Position numbers and translations under genes: made by a program. A stretch of 64,000 nucleotides of DNA from Pseudomonadota bacterium (GTDB lineage Bacteria > Pseudomonadota > Gammaproteobacteria > Burkholderiales > Chitinibacteraceae), in the NCBI GenBank assembly GCA_026399755.1, contig JAPLQI010000001.1, positions 1 to 64,000 of the forward strand. The letters run 5' to 3'. Positions 4,389-15,337 of this stretch are shown one piece after another; position 1 is the stretch's first letter; each line of letters starts with the position of its first letter. The notes under the pieces were generated by a model, which made no database searches, was not told the DNA's origin, and worked only from the letters and a program-made list of their open reading frames with translations.

Positions 4389-4589
4389 CTACGCACTTTT
4401 TTTGTGGTGTTTTCGATGTCTCATTTCAGCAGCCAAACCTTTCCCATTCCCTCTCTTCTTGCGCTCTGCGTCGTATTCAGAAGTACACGGGATACACCAA
4501 ACTCGTAGTCCATCTGGGTTGGCAGTCTTTACTCCATAATGAGATAAGGGCTTATTGATCTTACATATTGTGCATGGCTTGTTTTGCAT
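4389..4589 (-). CDS. Small zinc-finger-like protein (66 aa)
   Basis: This is a 66-residue ORF with two CxxC pairs: CTIC near residue 6 and CIPC near residue 34. Between them is a segment containing KPLSHYGVKTANPDGLRVWC, and a very basic tail rich in Arg, Lys and His follows. The Cys spacing and the DGL motif resemble small zinc-binding proteins related to the N-terminus of phage-type recombination endonuclease VII proteins, which is a weak resemblance. A longer frame up to 4757 exists, but its first half runs through a repeat of family B, so Met at 4589 is preferred. AAGGAG lies rather far upstream (about 16 bases). It could be a remnant of mobile DNA between two repeats. Confidence 0.5.
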   Translation of the reverse strand: MQNKPCTICKINKPLSHYGVKTANPDGLRVWCIPCTSEYDAERKKRGNGKGLAAEMRHRKHHKKSA

Positions 4590-8279: not shown

Positions 8280-8325
8280 CGTCATCCCCGCAGGGGTTTA
8301 TCGGGGATTTTGCAGGGCCGCTGGA
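8280..8325. repeat. Partial copy of dispersed repeat, family A
   Basis: CGTCATCCCCG, a short palindromic segment, TATCGGGGAT and then GCTGGAT match the left half of family A (complete copy at 4274), with a divergent centre. It is intergenic, between the DUF1289 gene and an NTF2-like gene. Confidence 0.55.
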
Positions 8326-8427: not shown

Positions 8428-8952
8428 TTAGCCTATCCAATCGTCTGCTGATTCGCAGGGCAATAGCTGAATTTCTTCTGATTTAGGTAAATCGACTAAA
8501 TGCCTTAATGCATCCTCAGCTCTCGCTAAAGGGTGTTTTAATGGTCTGTGATTGGGCTGCATGGGCGATATTTTTTCTTCGTATTGAATTACGCCCGCCA
8601 TTGCCCATTCACCATATATCCGCTTGAGCTGGTAGCTGGTGCAGTATTCCCAAGGGCTACCGTCTTTTAGCGTAACTCGCCAACGCAGCCTTGCCGTCGC
8701 CAGATTTTTATCTAGTTTAAGCAGGCTTACAACTGTGTACTGCGCGTTATAAAAGCCCTGTTGCTTATACCAATCAAACAAAATGCAGGTGGTGTGATAA
8801 AGCTCTTCCAGCTTAGGCCAGTTAGTTTTTTCACCATTGATCAGGGTAAAAAACGGCAGGCAAAACATATCCGTTACGCCATCAACATCTAAGCGAGCGT
8901 AGACCTTTGAAAAACGCTCGAAGAATATTTCTAGGTCGTGTGTTTCATCCAT
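8428..8952 (-). CDS. NTF2-like fold protein of unknown function
   Basis: This is a 174-residue predicted cytosolic protein. Alternating helices and strands, with EIFFERFSKVYARLDVDG near the start, LPFFTLINGEKTNW in the middle, then LDKNLATARLRWRVTLKDG and GEWAMAGVIQYEE, are typical of the NTF2/SnoaL-like superfamily, which includes many enzymes and binding proteins. No catalytic residues can be assigned. The frame is open 53 codons further upstream, but GGTGAAG six bases before the ATG at 8952 fixes this start. The gene has no obvious operon partner. Confidence 0.65.
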   Translation of the reverse strand: MDETHDLEIFFERFSKVYARLDVDGVTDMFCLPFFTLINGEKTNWPKLEELYHTTCILFDWYKQQGFYNAQYTVVSLLKLDKNLATARLRWRVTLKDGSPWEYCTSYQLKRIYGEWAMAGVIQYEEKISPMQPNHRPLKHPLARAEDALRHLVDLPKSEEIQLLPCESADDWIG

Positions 8953-9212
8953 CGCTTCACCACGTATACATAGTGTTATGTATGTCGATGGTATATGGAA
9001 AGTATTTGAATGGAAAATAGAAAGTAATTTGAAAGATAGTGTTGTGGCTAGAGGGCTACAGTTTGGGTTGAGAGAGTAGTAAAAACACAGAATATTCCTG
9101 ACGCAAGCCATTATAAAAATGAATTAATACAGCGATTTATCGTAATATCCTTACAAATCGTCGTTTAATGCTTCCTAATTTTCTATCCTTCATGTAATAT
9201 GCCGCTCTCTTC

Positions 9213-9289
9213 AGGGGAGTCGCCAAGTTGGTTAAGGCATCGGATTTTGATTCCGACATGCGAAGGTTCGAATCCTTCTTCCCCTGCCA
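9213..9289 (+). tRNA. tRNA-Gln (anticodon UUG)
   Basis: The cloverleaf can be drawn in full. The acceptor stem AGGGGAG pairs with TTCCCCT and has one G-T pair. The D arm closes with GCC/GGC. The anticodon stem TCGGA/TCCGA encloses the loop TTTTGAT with anticodon TTG at 9247-9249. The T arm is GAAGG/CCTTC around TTCGAAT. Discriminator G and an encoded CCA end at 9289. Length is 77 bases. Confidence 0.96.
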
Positions 9290-9353: not shown

Positions 9354-9388
9354 CGTCATCCCCGAATGTTTTTATCGGGGATCCAGCC
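9354..9388. repeat. Half copy of dispersed repeat, family A
   Basis: CGTCATCCCCGAATG, five T residues and ATCGGGGATCCAGC form the left half of the element described at 4274. It lies between the tRNA-Gln terminator and the 3' end of bluB. Confidence 0.65.
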
Positions 9389-9437: not shown

Positions 9438-10112
9438 CTAATAGCTAATCGGTGTGCTGTGATCGCCTTCCGGCCAGCTATTTTCAAAAAAGATTTGTTC
9501 CTGCTCTAAGCGGCTGCCCCAGCCTAAGCGCTCTAGCGTGGGTTTTTCTGGGAAGGCTTCAACTTGCCCTAGGCAAAGAATGGCAATCGGCTTTGCGCCC
9601 TCTGGCATCTTTAATAACTTGGCGAGATCGCTAGGCTCAAAGATCGATACCCAGCCTAGCCCTATGCCTTCGGCACGCGCCAGTAGCCACATATTCTGAA
9701 TGGCGCAGGAGGCAGAAGCCAAATCCATTTCGGGTAGGGTGCGGCGGCCAAAGATATGCTTCTCACGCCCATCCATTAACGCCACCACCAAGACTTCGGC
9801 GCATTCTGCCAAGCCATCCACCTTGAGCTTCATAAATTCTTGCTGACGACTAGGCAGCGCTGCCGAGGTGCGTTCACGCTCGGCATCGACCAAGGCATGC
9901 ACCTGCCCACGTAATGCATCGTCGGTGATATGCAGAAAGCGCCAAGGCTGCATAAAGCCCACCGAAGGAGCCATTTGTGCAGCTTCAATTAAGCGGGGCA
10001 TCAGCCCCTCTGGCAGCGGCCCAGTTTTAAACTGACGAATATCCCGCCGCTGGCTCATTAGCCGAGTCAGGCTTTCGATTTCGCTATCTAAAAAACGATG
10101 TGAGTTGGGCAT
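9438..10112 (-). CDS. bluB: 5,6-dimethylbenzimidazole synthase (BluB)
   Basis: BluB breaks down reduced FMN with oxygen to make 5,6-dimethylbenzimidazole, the lower ligand of vitamin B12. The 224-residue nitroreductase-fold protein shows RRDIRQFKTGPLP near 22-34, AAQMAPSVGFMQPWRF near 44-59, GLGWVSIFEP, IAILCLGQVEAFPEKPTLE and the late GW..R segment, all characteristic of BluB rather than generic nitroreductases. AAGGA lies 8 bases before the ATG. metH, which encodes a B12-dependent enzyme, lies about 1.2 kb away on the same strand. No cobalamin riboswitch was recognised upstream. Confidence 0.9.
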   Translation of the reverse strand: MPNSHRFLDSEIESLTRLMSQRRDIRQFKTGPLPEGLMPRLIEAAQMAPSVGFMQPWRFLHITDDALRGQVHALVDAERERTSAALPSRQQEFMKLKVDGLAECAEVLVVALMDGREKHIFGRRTLPEMDLASASCAIQNMWLLARAEGIGLGWVSIFEPSDLAKLLKMPEGAKPIAILCLGQVEAFPEKPTLERLGWGSRLEQEQIFFENSWPEGDHSTPISY

Positions 10113-10205
10113 GGGGAATTCCTTGACGCACTTTTTTAGCTTAGTAGGGGAGAGACAGGAGAAGTTGTCAGGTTTTTTAGTATTGATGAATGGAACTGAG
10201 CCGTT

Positions 10206-10259
10206 TGCCCATAGACTTCTTGATGATTGTTTCGTCGATCACCAAGAAGTCTATGGGCA
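10206..10259. repeat. Long isolated hairpin (17-bp perfect arms) upstream of bluB
   Basis: TGCCCATAGACTTCTTG pairs perfectly with CAAGAAGTCTATGGGCA. Further pairing inside, with one mismatch and one wobble, extends the stem to about 24 bp around a loop of about 6 bases. No T run follows on either strand, so it is not a standard terminator. It lies between bluB and the orphan gene at 10317. Confidence 0.7.
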
Positions 10260-10316
10260 TTTACACCGAAATATTTATGGGTTCTAAAAATTTCTAAGTT
10301 AATTTTTGGTAAGACT

Positions 10317-11213
10317 CTAGTCTAAAATGCCGCGTCCTTCACTTCTACGTAAAGTTGCGCTGACTTGTTGCATACTGGCTACTGGCACTTTATATCTACA
10401 AGCTCTTCCATCGTCAGCTACGGCTGTACACATATAGTGGTAGCTGCCTAATATGCTGCCATCTGCGCTAGGTATTTCGAGCATGCGCATTGGGATTAAA
10501 TGGGTGGGGCAAGTGATGGCTTGGTCTTCTCTTCCAAGCGATTCACGCAAGCGTGAATGAGTGCTCTTAAGCATCGCAGGTTGGTGCATGTACCCAGCGA
10601 TAACAATTGCATTCCCATCTAAGTCGTATGTTGGCTTACGCAGAACAACAACTTCTGCTTCTGGTTTGAAGAATATAGGTTTGCAAGTACTGTTTAGCTT
10701 TGTGCATTGCCACTTTAATTTCTGTTGTTTGGTGAGAGTGTCTTGTGAGTGGTGTGTCAGTCGCATTGGTGTATTGCACTCCGGACACGGCTTTGTGGCT
10801 AGTAGTGCAATGTTAGCTGCAGCTTCGTTTGCAGTAAGAACTGTTGAAATAAGCTCTTCTGCAGCTTCTACAATGTCATGAGCACTATTTTCAGCAGATG
10901 CTTTGTCCATTTGTTTTTTTAGTTCTGCTCGCTCCTGAGCAATTTCATATAAACGTTCCTTGTCTGCTTCGGTTTGTTTATTGTCATGTGCTGCTTTTGT
11001 GTAAAGTTCTTTTTCTTCCTGTACTAAATCTTTCGCAGTAGCAAACATGTCTATGAGCTGCCCAGTTGTTTTACTGGCAAATTTAGCTGCTTTTTCTGAT
11101 GCAAATGCTTTGACAATGGAATGTACAGCTTCTTGAATGAATTCTTTACCTTCCTGTAATGTGTTGCGGACAAAAGAGACTGCCCCACTAAACAGCGATT
11201 CAAGAAAACTCAT
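10317..11213 (-). CDS. Unrecognised protein: helical/coiled-coil N-terminus with two Cys-rich modules
   Basis: This is a 298-residue protein of unknown family. Residues 1-130 are helical, starting with the amphipathic segment SFLESLFSGAVSFVRN. A charged stretch rich in Glu, Lys, Asp and Gln (about 64-105) is likely coiled coil. A first putative zinc ribbon has CPEC near 143 and a second Cys pair (CTKLNSTC) near 170. A second Cys/His group has CPTH near 233 and Cys residues near 261 and 271. No signal peptide or enzyme motif is visible. AAGGA lies 8 bases before the ATG. The DNA is visibly more AT-rich than the flanking bluB and metH genes, which suggests acquisition. It could be an envelope-stress or defence accessory protein; I cannot assign a function. 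Confidence 0.7.
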   Translation of the reverse strand: MSFLESLFSGAVSFVRNTLQEGKEFIQEAVHSIVKAFASEKAAKFASKTTGQLIDMFATAKDLVQEEKELYTKAAHDNKQTEADKERLYEIAQERAELKKQMDKASAENSAHDIVEAAEELISTVLTANEAAANIALLATKPCPECNTPMRLTHHSQDTLTKQQKLKWQCTKLNSTCKPIFFKPEAEVVVLRKPTYDLDGNAIVIAGYMHQPAMLKSTHSRLRESLGREDQAITCPTHLIPMRMLEIPSADGSILGSYHYMCTAVADDGRACRYKVPVASMQQVSATLRRSEGRGILD

Positions 11214-11315
11214 GGTTGGATCCTTTTAAAGAATGTTGATTAGATATGCATCATATTACCAACTGAGTAAGTATATGGTTGGATGTCAGTTAGATGTAGG
11301 GTGTCTCGTTGATAC

Positions 11316-14300
11316 TCAGGCGTTATATCCCAGATTAGGTGCTAAATCTCGCTCGGCTTGCTCAATCGTTACCCCACGTCGCGTCGCGTAGCTTTCCACC
11401 TGATCCTTCTCGATTTTACCCACGGCAAAGTATTGGGCTTGGGGGTGGCTGAAGTAGAAGCCACTGACGGCTGCGGTAGGCAGCATGGCGTAGCCCTCGG
11501 TGAGGCTCATGCCGATGCTGCCCGGGTCGATCAGGTTAAATAAGCCGGTTTTGGGCGTGTGATCTGGGCAGGCGGGGTAGCCGGGGGCGGGGCGGATGCC
11601 TTGGTATTTTTCATCGGTTAAATCATCCACATGCAGGTTTTCATCCGGCATATAGCCCCATAGCTCTTTGCGAATTTTCTCGTGCATATATTCGGCAAAG
11701 CCCTCGGCAAAACGATCAGCCAAGGCTTTCACCATAATGGCGTTGTAATCATCATCGGCTTTTTCAAAGCGCTCTACATGCTGATCAATATTCAGCCCGC
11801 CCGTTACGGCAAACGCGCCAATATAGTCAGTTACGCCGCTGTTTTTGGGGGCTATAAAGTCAGCCAAGCACCAGTTAGGCTTACCAGCAGCCTTGGCGTT
11901 TTGCTGGCGCAGATTGTGCCAAGTCATCAGCCGCTCGCCATTTTCTGGGTGATAGATTTCAATATCGTCTTCCACGCTGCAAGCTGGAAAGAGGCCGATT
12001 ACGCCATTGGCTTGCACCCACTCGCCTTCTATCATTTGCGCCAGCAGCACTTGGGCATCGGCAAATAAGGCTGTTGCGGCCTCGCCAACCACTTCGTCGG
12101 TCAGAATGCGTGGATATTTACCGGCCAGCTCCCAAGCGTTAAAGAAGGGGCTCCAATCGATGTAGGGGGCGATGTCGGCAAGAGGCACTTTTTCAAAGCG
12201 CATCACGCCCAGCTGCTTGGGTTTGGGTGGGGTGTAGCTGGTCCAGTCGATTTCAAATTTATTGGCGCGGGCGGTGGAAATTGGCAGTAGTTTGCTCTTG
12301 CCTTTGTTCTCATGAATGGTGCGGATATTTTGGTATTCGGCGCGTAGCTTTTCCATAAAGGCAGGCTTTAGCTCGTCGCTTAATAAATTGGAGCATACGC
12401 CTACCGCGCGGCTGGCATCCGGCACATAAACCACGGGGCCATTGGCGTAGCCCGGCTCGATTTTAACGGCGGTGTGCACCTTGGATGTGGTGGCGCCGCC
12501 AATTAGCAGCGGAATATCAAAGCCCTGGCGCTGCATTTCTTTGGCCACATGGCTCATTTCTTCCAGGCTTGGGGTAATCAGGCCGGACAGGCCGATCATA
12601 TCTGCGCCGATTTCCTTGGCGGTATCGAGGATTTTTTGCGCGGGCACCATCACGCCAAGGTCGGTCACCTTGTAGTTATTGCAGCGGAGCACCACACCCA
12701 CAATATTCTTACCGATATCGTGTACATCGCCTTTCACCGTTGCCATTACAATATTGCCTTTGGCGGGTGCGTCTTGCAGGCCCATGGCGATTTTTTCTGC
12801 TTCGATAAAGGGCTCAAGATGGGCGACGGCGGCTTTCATTACGCGGGCGGACTTTACCACCTGAGGCAGAAACATCTGGCCCGATCCAAACAGATCACCC
12901 ACATGGTTCATACCGTTCATGAGTACGCCTTCGATCACATGAATCGGGCGTTCTACCGCAAGCCGTGCTTCTTCGGCATCTTCCAGAATAAAGGTGGTAT
13001 TGCCACGCACCAGCGCGTGGGTAATGCGCTCTTGCAGCGTGCCATTGCGCCAGCTTAAATCCTCGCCCTTGGCTTGATTTGCGTCGCCTTTAAAGCGCTC
13101 GGCAATTTCGATCAGGCGTTCGGTCACATCCAGATTGCCCTCAGTGAGTGGCGCTCCGGCGCTGGTTCCGGCGGGCAACATTCGCACAACGTCTTCAATA
13201 ATATCGCGCAACTCACGCGGCACTTCTTCGTAAACTTCTAGCGCCCCCGCGTTCACAATCCCCATCGTCATGCCTTTTTTAATGGCGTGATAGAGGAAGA
13301 CGGCGTGGATGGCTTCACGTACCTTGTTATTGCCACGGAAGGAGAACGACACATTGGATACGCCGCCGCTGACCTTGGCGTGCGGTAGATTTTGGTGAAT
13401 CCAGCCGGTGGCTTCGATAAAGTCGAGGCCGTAGCGGGCGTGCTCTTCAATGCCGGTGGCGACGGCAAAGATGTTTGGGTCGAAAATAATGTCGGCCGGA
13501 TCCATGCCCACTTCATCGACCAGAATGCGGTAGCTCTTTTCGCAGATTTCTACTTTGCGGGCATAGGTATCGGCCTGGCCAACCTCATCAAAAGCCATGA
13601 CGATCACCGCTGCACCATAATCTTTGACCAGACGTGCGTGGTGCTTAAAGGCTTCAACACCTTCTTTCATCGAGATCGAGTTAACAATGCACTTGCCCTG
13701 CACGCATTTCAAACCGGCTTCGATTACATCCCATTTGGACGAGTCGATCATGATCGGTACGCGTGAGATATCTGGCTCGGCTGCGATTAGGTTCAGGAAG
13801 GTGACCATGGCTTTGTGGGCATCCAGCATGCCCTCGTCCATATTGATGTCGATCACTTGCGCGCCGTTTTCTACCTGCTGCCGCGCCACCACCAAGGCTT
13901 GTGGATAATCGCCATTTAAAATTAGCCGGGCAAAGGCTTTGGAGCCGGTGACGTTGGTGCGCTCACCTACGTTCACAAATAAATCGCTATCGCCGATATT
14001 AAATGGCTCAAGGCCAGAGAGGCGGCATTTGGCCTCGATCTCGGGCAGGGCACGTGGCGCGATGTCTTTTACTGCCGCATACATGGCGGCGATGTGTGCA
14101 GGCGTGGTACCGCAGCAGCCGCCGACGATATTGATCAGGCCAGATTCAGCCCATTCTTTGATCGATTCGGCCATCATTGCTGGGTCTAAGTCGTAGCCGC
14201 CAAAGGCATTGGGCAAGCCCGCATTGGCGTGCACCGATACAAAGCCTTCGGAAATACGGCTGAGTTCTTCTACATACTGGCGCAGCAAATCTGGCCCCAG

Positions 14301-15065
14301 CGCACAGTTTAGCCCGTAGCTAATGGCATCTGAGTGGCGCAGGCTGTTGTAAAACGCTTCGGTGGTCTGGCCAGTTAAGGTGCGGCCAGATTGATCGGTA
14401 ATCGTGCCGGAAACCATCACCGGCAGTTGATCGTCTTTGGCAATATCATTTCTGCGGAAATACTGTTTAATCGCGAACACCGCGGCTTTGGCATTCAGAG
14501 TGTCGAAAATCGTTTCAACCAGCAGAATATCCGCGCCGCCTTTCACGAGGCCATCGATGGCTTCTAAATAGCTTTCAACCAGTGCATCAAAGGTTACATT
14601 GCGATAGCCAGGGTCGTTTACATCGGGGCTGATCGAGCAGGTGCGGTTGGTTGGCCCTAAAACACCGGCGCAGTAGCGCGGCTTATTCGGTGTTTTGGCG
14701 GTTTGCGCTGTGCATAATTCTTTTACTAACTTGGCCGCGGAAAAATTCAGCTCCCAAACGAGGCTTTCCATTTCGTAATCGGCCATGGCAATCGAGGTGC
14801 CGTTAAAGGTATTGGTCTCGATAATATCCGCACCCGCATCAAGGTAGCCCTGATGGATTTCAGCGATGATGTGCGGCTGACTCAGCACCAGCAAATCGTT
14901 ATTGCCTTTGACATCACAAGTCCAATCGGCAAAACGCGTGCCGCGATAATCGGCTTCTTGCAAATCGTAAGCCTGAATCATCGTTCCCATGCCGCCATCC
15001 AAAATCAGAATGCGCTGTTTGAGCTGGTTTTGTAGTTCTGAATGAAGACTCTGGGGGCGGGTCAT
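11316..15065 (-). CDS. metH: Cobalamin-dependent methionine synthase
   Basis: MetH transfers a methyl group from methyltetrahydrofolate through cobalamin to homocysteine. The full set of modules is present: the homocysteine domain ([11 protein letters not shown] near the start, zinc ligands in GLNCALG and GGCCGTTP), the pterin-binding domain ([11 protein letters not shown]), the cap and B12-binding domains ([11 protein letters not shown] supplies the axial His), and the C-terminal AdoMet activation domain ([12 protein letters not shown]). The 1249-residue length is close to the 1227 of E. coli MetH. The frame is open for about 80 codons upstream; I prefer the ATG at 15065 because AAGG lies 9 bases before it, with ATG at 15071 a near alternative. 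It is divergent from the oxidoreductase gene at 15338. Confidence 0.95.
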
Positions 15066-15337
15066 GGGCATATACCTTGGATGTCTAAGAAATACGGCTG
15101 CAAAGTCGGCAATTTTACCACGCCAGGTGGTGGTTTTAGGCGCGTTGCGTGGCTTTGCTCGTTTATCGTTTCGGCTAATGCGTTGAGGTGTTGGATATAA
15201 ATTAAATGTTGATGGCGGTTCAACATAATTCCGGTGCGGCAAGCTTGCAGTCGCGCTATGGTTCTTTATTTGCCAGTTTGTTGCGAGCTGGACATTTTTG
15301 TCAGTTTTACTCAATGAGCTTACTAGAGGAAATCGTG

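Follow-up and report, generated by a model that had tools for sequence, protein, structure and literature searches.

The gene at 10317..11213 (minus strand) of the window, by which we mean the whole 64 000-nt stretch of DNA analyzed, reads to us, with evenly balanced confidence, as a stand-alone member, acquired by horizontal transfer, of a rare defense-type family whose product would be a nucleic-acid-binding sensor or adaptor. Sequence comparison is the basis of this reading; a defense role is made probable by the gene neighbors of relatives, and the probable mechanism is drawn from protein anatomy. We call the gene and its family C. It was defined from the ORF listing of the window, where it is an intact frame of 298 codons with an ATG start, and by homology to 14 relatives. 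A sequence-only reading of this DNA had called it an orphan encoding a coiled-coil protein with two Cys-rich modules, a description that was right in nearly every part, with 'orphan' giving way to 'rare family'.

The 14 relatives that end its orphan status came from stepwise searches. Searches with the window protein by itself were empty in 100 related genomes, viral contigs, plasmids and phages; 21 stretches of genome contigs matched it and none was confirmed, and against PDB nothing scored under E 0.9. A class-wide search gave weak full-layout matches, three of which (L002, L003 and L005) proved real by alignment. From the 22 genomes with E ≤0.1 we kept G000, G173, G281 and G196; among the other 18, L004, L006 and L011 were inspected and the rest discarded on account of their score, their short span or their stops. 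The profile of those three members, run against 84,980 species, returned 11 loci (L059-L069), the three included (L002 is L069, L003 is L060 and L005 is L059; each is counted once). An order-wide search with the enlarged alignment added L092, L093 and L094; a G850 match (18.6 bits, one stop) was dropped, and one in G953, ending at base 4565 just as L061 does, was counted as L061. Family C therefore has 15 members including the window protein, with the relatives coming from Pseudomonadota and Cyanobacteria, and is rare: 4 of the 369 genomes of the class and 5 of the 399 of the order, G000 counted, had credible matches. It is not named in the literature searched, and the part of PMC10952713 consulted holds nothing bearing on it. 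Such genes escape single-sequence searches in nearest relatives; class-wide search and profile building revealed the family.

Membership of the window protein is shown by full-length homology, by both ligand sets and by the C-terminal tail. Its nearest relative is L094, found in the same order but in a different family; the two proteins agree at 112 of 300 positions (37% identity, full length, 2e-67). A profile of 11 relatives that excludes the window protein, three of them originally discovered through it, matches it at E 2.5e-26 (Z=1000), the best of 500 shuffles reaching 0.017. With all Cys changed to Ala the protein still scores 6.9e-15, and its pieces match separately: residues 201-298 at 2.9e-12, residues 1-138 at 3.2e-8 and module 1 alone at no better than 0.0049.

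The relatives have a common plan of N-terminal helix, coiled-coil region, C4 module, C3H module and GxGIL-type tail. In the window protein, residues 1-38 (11100..11213, minus strand) form a helical, weakly amphipathic stretch by AlphaFold2 and hydropathy. Residues 42-116 (10866..11090, minus strand) are a predicted antiparallel coiled-coil hairpin. Module 1 (C143-C177; 10683..10787, minus strand) has four cysteines in the pattern CPxC-x23-C-x6-C (C143, C146, C170 and C177), and module 2 (C235-C272; 10398..10511, minus strand) reads CPxH-x23-C-x9-C (C235, H238, C262 and C272), making it C3H, not C4. The conserved tail (S...Q...L...GxGIL in the family alignment) covers residues 280-298 (10320..10376, minus strand). 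All eight predicted zinc ligands are invariant in the 15 aligned members, so the two Cys-rich modules proposed earlier are more than chance; R95, K141, M150, W168 and P236 are invariant as well. In four members (L063, L066, L067 and L068) the first CxxC is replaced by CxC.

In agreement with the coiled-coil middle of the sequence-only reading, AlphaFold2 (pLDDT 69.1, pTM 0.63 for the window protein) places helices at residues 42-77 and 82-116, with pLDDT block means of 86-92 over residues 51-100. The model also has strands around the ligand sets (149-154 and 166-170; 229-234, 241-246 and 258-261). Both modules are probably zinc ribbons, judging by these modeled strands and the invariant ligands; the likeness to known ribbon families stays below cut-offs. 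The start of the protein is amphipathic at best (maximal hydrophobic moment 0.55, model confidence <50 over residues 1-21), and its maximal 19-residue Kyte-Doolittle mean is 0.85, within the range of 0.35 to 1.84 in 10 full-length relatives, some of which are more hydrophobic. A suggested association with a complex is plausible from the tight operons of relatives; on membrane association of the window protein, model and hydropathy point neither way.

The protein has no recognized domain, as the sequence-only reading had stated: no match lies above the curated cut-offs of Pfam and NCBIfam, the best PHROGs match is at E 0.075, and the best PADLOC match, to the coiled-coil ATPase LmuB, is at E 0.0079. 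PADLOC matches of C and of a partner protein A (below) to LmuB/JetA coiled coils (E 0.001-0.04) were taken as coiled-coil noise. Foldseek with the C model returned nothing at E 0.001, and VIA-align returned generic helices and coiled coils only. Among those alignments are the coiled coils of SMC, RecN and UvsY, in keeping with a DNA-repair or nucleoid protein built from zinc module and coiled coil; we consider that quite improbable, as unrelated proteins score equal Z (7.5-9.2) beside the SMC, RecN and UvsY rows, the distribution is patchy, and by eye no recurrent repair gene adjoins the relatives.

Models of Top1 and recombinase ribbons match 3 of 12 and 5 of 12 family members, below cut-off; in some relatives it is module 1 that has this likeness. 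Zn_ribbon_Top1 (PF01396) resembles the C modules in Cys spacing and tandem arrangement, with a best sub-threshold score of 1.6e-4 in those three members (21.8 bits against a cut-off of 32); neither the window protein nor the relatives scanned reach the curated cut-off. The window protein differs from Top1 ribbons in having no match to the model, a C3H module 2 and no topoisomerase domain. Against the zinc part of E. coli TopA, the module-1 profile scored 0.015 (best of 300 shuffles 0.35) and the module-2 profile gave no match at all. E. coli topoisomerase I binds ssDNA through its C-terminal domains, according to the part of PMC9369019 consulted, and the CoCoNuT paper (PMC11090510), in the part consulted, raises nucleic-acid recognition as a possibility for kinase-fused ribbons.

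The proposed survey of the homologues' genomic neighbors gives three layouts, with seven, six and two members. In layout i (L059-L065), A, a small coiled coil of ~75-120 aa, and B (324-333 aa) come before C. The B and C frames overlap in all but one of the seven operons, where 2 bases part them, and those of A and B do so in four; the other gaps are 2-7 bases. Layout ii is solitary, with no A or B adjoining, and comprises the window gene, L094, L066 (Tolypothrix), L067 and L068 (Nostoc) and L069 (Thiothrix). In layout iii, the C genes of L092 and L093 come after a hydrophobic 289-290-aa protein (L092 1238-2107, L093 620-1492) with the His/Asp motifs PDSDL, HRSPFTHS and YHLGVD. A motif hints at a YdjM/DUF457-like nature for this protein, but neither a comparison with E. 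coli YdjM (probability 0.7, 30 shuffles reaching up to 1.08) nor a PDB search bore it out, so that it stands as a lead only. The 225-aa proteins upstream of C in L094 (1551-2228) and L060 (7359-8036) look by eye like the uracil-DNA-glycosylase superfamily; that reading of the L094 gene found nothing significant, a mismatch glycosylase appearing at E 0.86.

Partner B matches the PADLOC candidate family PDC-M72B in all four proteins scanned (best E 3.9e-15 to 4e-19). Across 17 B-type proteins (the seven of layout i and ten from a class-genome search) D140 and K157 are constant, E104 is kept in 16 with D in the other, and the [QS]xK157 motif has Q in 15 and S in 2. We take this E-D-[QS]xK pattern to be a PD-(D/E)xK nuclease motif; the acidic, acidic, [QED]xK catalytic pattern of such nucleases is present in B. 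The structure model of B is poor (pLDDT 53.5; VIA-align rows are helices or coiled coils); B has no Pfam match above cut-off, and Foldseek with this low-confidence model gave nothing at E 0.001. In the last third of all seven B proteins, the Kyte-Doolittle mean exceeds 1.4 over one or more 19-residue stretches.

The match of gene B ties the relatives to PDC-M72, from which they differ in that the scanned A and C proteins match no PDC-M72 model, PDC-M72A included (a component whose existence we assume from the name). The A-B-C operon is found in seven relatives; the window gene has no adjoining PDC-M72B gene, and its genome has no B match. 'PDC-M72' was not found in the literature searched. At E 1e-5, domains of the PDC-M72B type are present in 8 genomes of the 369 in the class, two of them layout-i genomes. 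Other architectures (L072-L081) include longer N-termini in L072 and L073 (by eye), a domain preceded in L079 by a region that weakly matches SAVED_TM (E 0.03), and one adjoining a PDC-M09A match (9e-12) in L075.

Two changes on the tree, the minimum for three layouts, account for their distribution. Support is 99/99 for the solitary side, 100/100 for the pair of window protein and L094 and 78/82 for the seven members with B; an earlier 12-row tree without L092-L094 gave 100/100 between solitary and with-B members. The deeper branching order is unsure, the branches being long. Since C stays constant while its partner changes, it is more likely a sensor or adaptor than an effector. The solitary branch is then the awkward case, in which the N-terminal helix or an unlinked partner would have to act. 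Solitary members could instead be relics, or could have taken up a different function since losing B: L069 is frameshifted, the window protein and L094 together are set apart by a long branch (2.05), so that their function may have shifted, and searches of four solitary genomes (G000 and those of L067, L068 and L069) gave no B, against 7 of 7 layout-i genomes, which contain the very sequences of the query alignment. We judge this account unlikely, because the solitary members form one supported group stretching from Cyanobacteria to Pseudomonadota, keep all eight ligands and have open frames in five of six cases. The frameshifted Thiothrix homologue sits between TIR-effector-like and DUF2971 genes.

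Defense-type genes adjoin several relatives. L064 has McrC and HsdS upstream and HsdR downstream. L065, a close relative of L064, has HsdS upstream and an AAA protein (PDC-S02 match) and SoFic downstream, with a McrC-like gene (by likeness to that of L064) between. At L061 an NYN/OST-HTH gene lies upstream, and ~3.5 kb downstream there is an HsdR-like gene on the opposite strand; L060 has a PDC-S31 match upstream, and L069 a PDC-S31 neighbor and a TIR-effector match. By eye no such genes lie near L059, L062, L063, L066-L068, L092-L094 or the window gene; one neighbor of L063 was run against PADLOC (best E 0.0033). Defense-type genes are thus near at least four of seven layout-i members (L060, L061, L064 and L065), at least one of six solitary members (L069) and at least zero of two in layout iii, counts that are a lower bound without background control, the neighbors having been chosen selectively for library scans. 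The C genes of the window, Nostoc and Tolypothrix lie mostly amid housekeeping-looking genes (by eye).

The window gene lies as previously described, between metH (11316-15314, minus strand; named by eye) and a nitroreductase-family gene (9438-10112, minus strand; Pfam Nitroreductase 3.9e-29) that the sequence-only reading named bluB, a name we keep as putative. Beyond the latter, two copies of a 29-nt repeat (8280-8308 and 9354-9382; 86% alike) flank a 227-aa ORF (8428-9111) and a tRNA-Gln gene (9213-9289).

Comparison of this gap across the genus supports the suggested gain of the gene. The nitroreductase gene was recovered at E 1e-40 or better in seven of eight other genus genomes (G001 gave no such match), and in all seven metH comes directly before it. 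The whole stretch between the two genes in the window (10113..11315, minus strand) has no match in any of the seven gaps, divergence starting right past the metH stop codon; synteny conserved in all related species, which would have spoken against acquisition, is thus not what we see. The gap is ~160-215 bases long in G003, G005 and G006. In G002, G004, G007 and G008 it holds a 212-aa HD-domain-like gene (by eye; L042, L044, L045 and L043), which was not found at E 1e-20 in the other five genus genomes. With the gap short and empty in three genomes and occupied by that gene in four, it may be a small insertion hotspot. Among 42 other genomes of the bacterial family the C gene has no credible match; the single weak one, in G007 (E 0.006), was dropped, having three stops. 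As family C is rare and scattered and the C gene is absent from all seven genus-mate gaps, it was gained or swapped in. A host metabolic role tied to cobalamin or methionine, to which its place between metH and bluB on the same strand as both might point, is very improbable given this absence and the other genes that adjoin the relatives.

Composition was said to set the gene apart as AT-rich, and the comparison with neighbors makes this real but moderate. None of the other mechanical ORFs of ≥150 aa in the window, 52 with this gene, has a GC3 as low as its 33.9% (mean 50.2%, z -2.2), and in GC, at 43.1%, it ranks 6th lowest (z -1.6); in 10 of 11 relatives GC of the C gene is lower than that of its own locus. 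The large hairpin reported beside the gene is there as well: repeat search and RNA folding place a near-perfect hairpin at 10206..10259, 58-111 bases past the stop codon, with a 22-nt inverted repeat (10206-10227/10238-10259; 95% complementary), a 10-nt loop and a fold of -39.5 kcal/mol (z -8.2; equally stable in 0 of 200 shuffles). The terminator scan lists nothing at the hairpin, and it falls in no Rfam family. Next to it, 10256..10285 (plus strand) is a probable relic of a terminal inverted repeat, sharing 20-21 of 22 bases with repeated element ends of genus mates (E 0.0014-0.003), some of which adjoin transposase-like ORFs (L023); an element-end pattern built from window and genus-mate sequences matches the window by construction. 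We take relic and ORFs to be of the IS256 (mutator) type. Because this probable relic abuts the hairpin, the latter is probably a piece of a decayed insertion-sequence end, as far as a short match can suggest.

That probable relic, together with the scattered distribution of the family and the contig of L093, which by eye looks mobile-element-like with terminase-, YqaJ- and toxin-antitoxin-like genes, would fit an accessory protein of a mobile element with no part in immunity: it would bind nucleic acid in the transfer, maintenance or regulation of an integrative element and have stayed behind at this site when that element decayed. We find it rather unlikely: no relative turned up in 72,556 plasmid records (queries window, L005, L067, L064, L093 and L094) or 50,697 phage records (queries window, L005 and L067), and none was confirmed in viral contigs with the window protein and relatives as queries, whereas a nuclease-like gene stands in the operon of seven relatives, and type I R-M genes adjoin two of these operons.

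Known pairings of nucleases with ribbons offer comparisons for the preferred reading, that of a defense-type sensor or adaptor. The family profile had matches in 10 places (9 genomes beside G000); the 8 inspected are single-ribbon proteins (L033 and L037 being left out). These eight (L029-L032, L034-L036 and L038), which we take to be NERD-like proteins, have a nuclease-like domain and one Top1-like ribbon, and differ from family C in that single ribbon, the match spanning 43-89 of 307 profile positions. Six belong to a single family of a different class and two to a single genome of the same class; they are possibly another nuclease-ribbon pairing. CoCoNuTs, as presented in the part of PMC11090510 consulted, are McrBC-related coiled-coil nuclease tandems whose ancillary genes include type I R-M. 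They too join coiled coils, zinc ribbons and PD-(D/E)xK nucleases in operons, whereas the operon of family C, set beside the same part of that paper, consists of short separate proteins with no McrB-type GTPase or CnuC; no McrB-like GTPase or CnuC is found among the genes adjoining the window gene.

In the mechanism that we propose, the two modules would bind zinc and nucleic acid, the latter that of an invader or an intermediate made during infection. The coiled coil would form an oligomer and dock a partner, nuclease-like or membrane-associated, which nucleic-acid binding would trigger. In the solitary form, the N-terminal helix might itself be the effector end, making contact with membrane or envelope, or an unlinked host protein might be recruited. 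A bolder version, which we hold to be possible though doubtful, is that of an undescribed anti-invader family in which one zinc-module/coiled-coil sensor serves interchangeable effectors (the PDC-M72B nuclease-like protein, the hydrophobic His/Asp-rich protein, or none) and the solitary branch is a complete single-gene defense acting via its N-terminal helix.

If the preferred reading is true, two unrecognized genes, A and C, would join a candidate defense system of which one part is known to PADLOC here. It would also explain a class of AT-rich 'orphans' between housekeeping genes, and would give experimenters a compact sensor, its partners exchangeable, with which to study how detection is coupled to different outputs.
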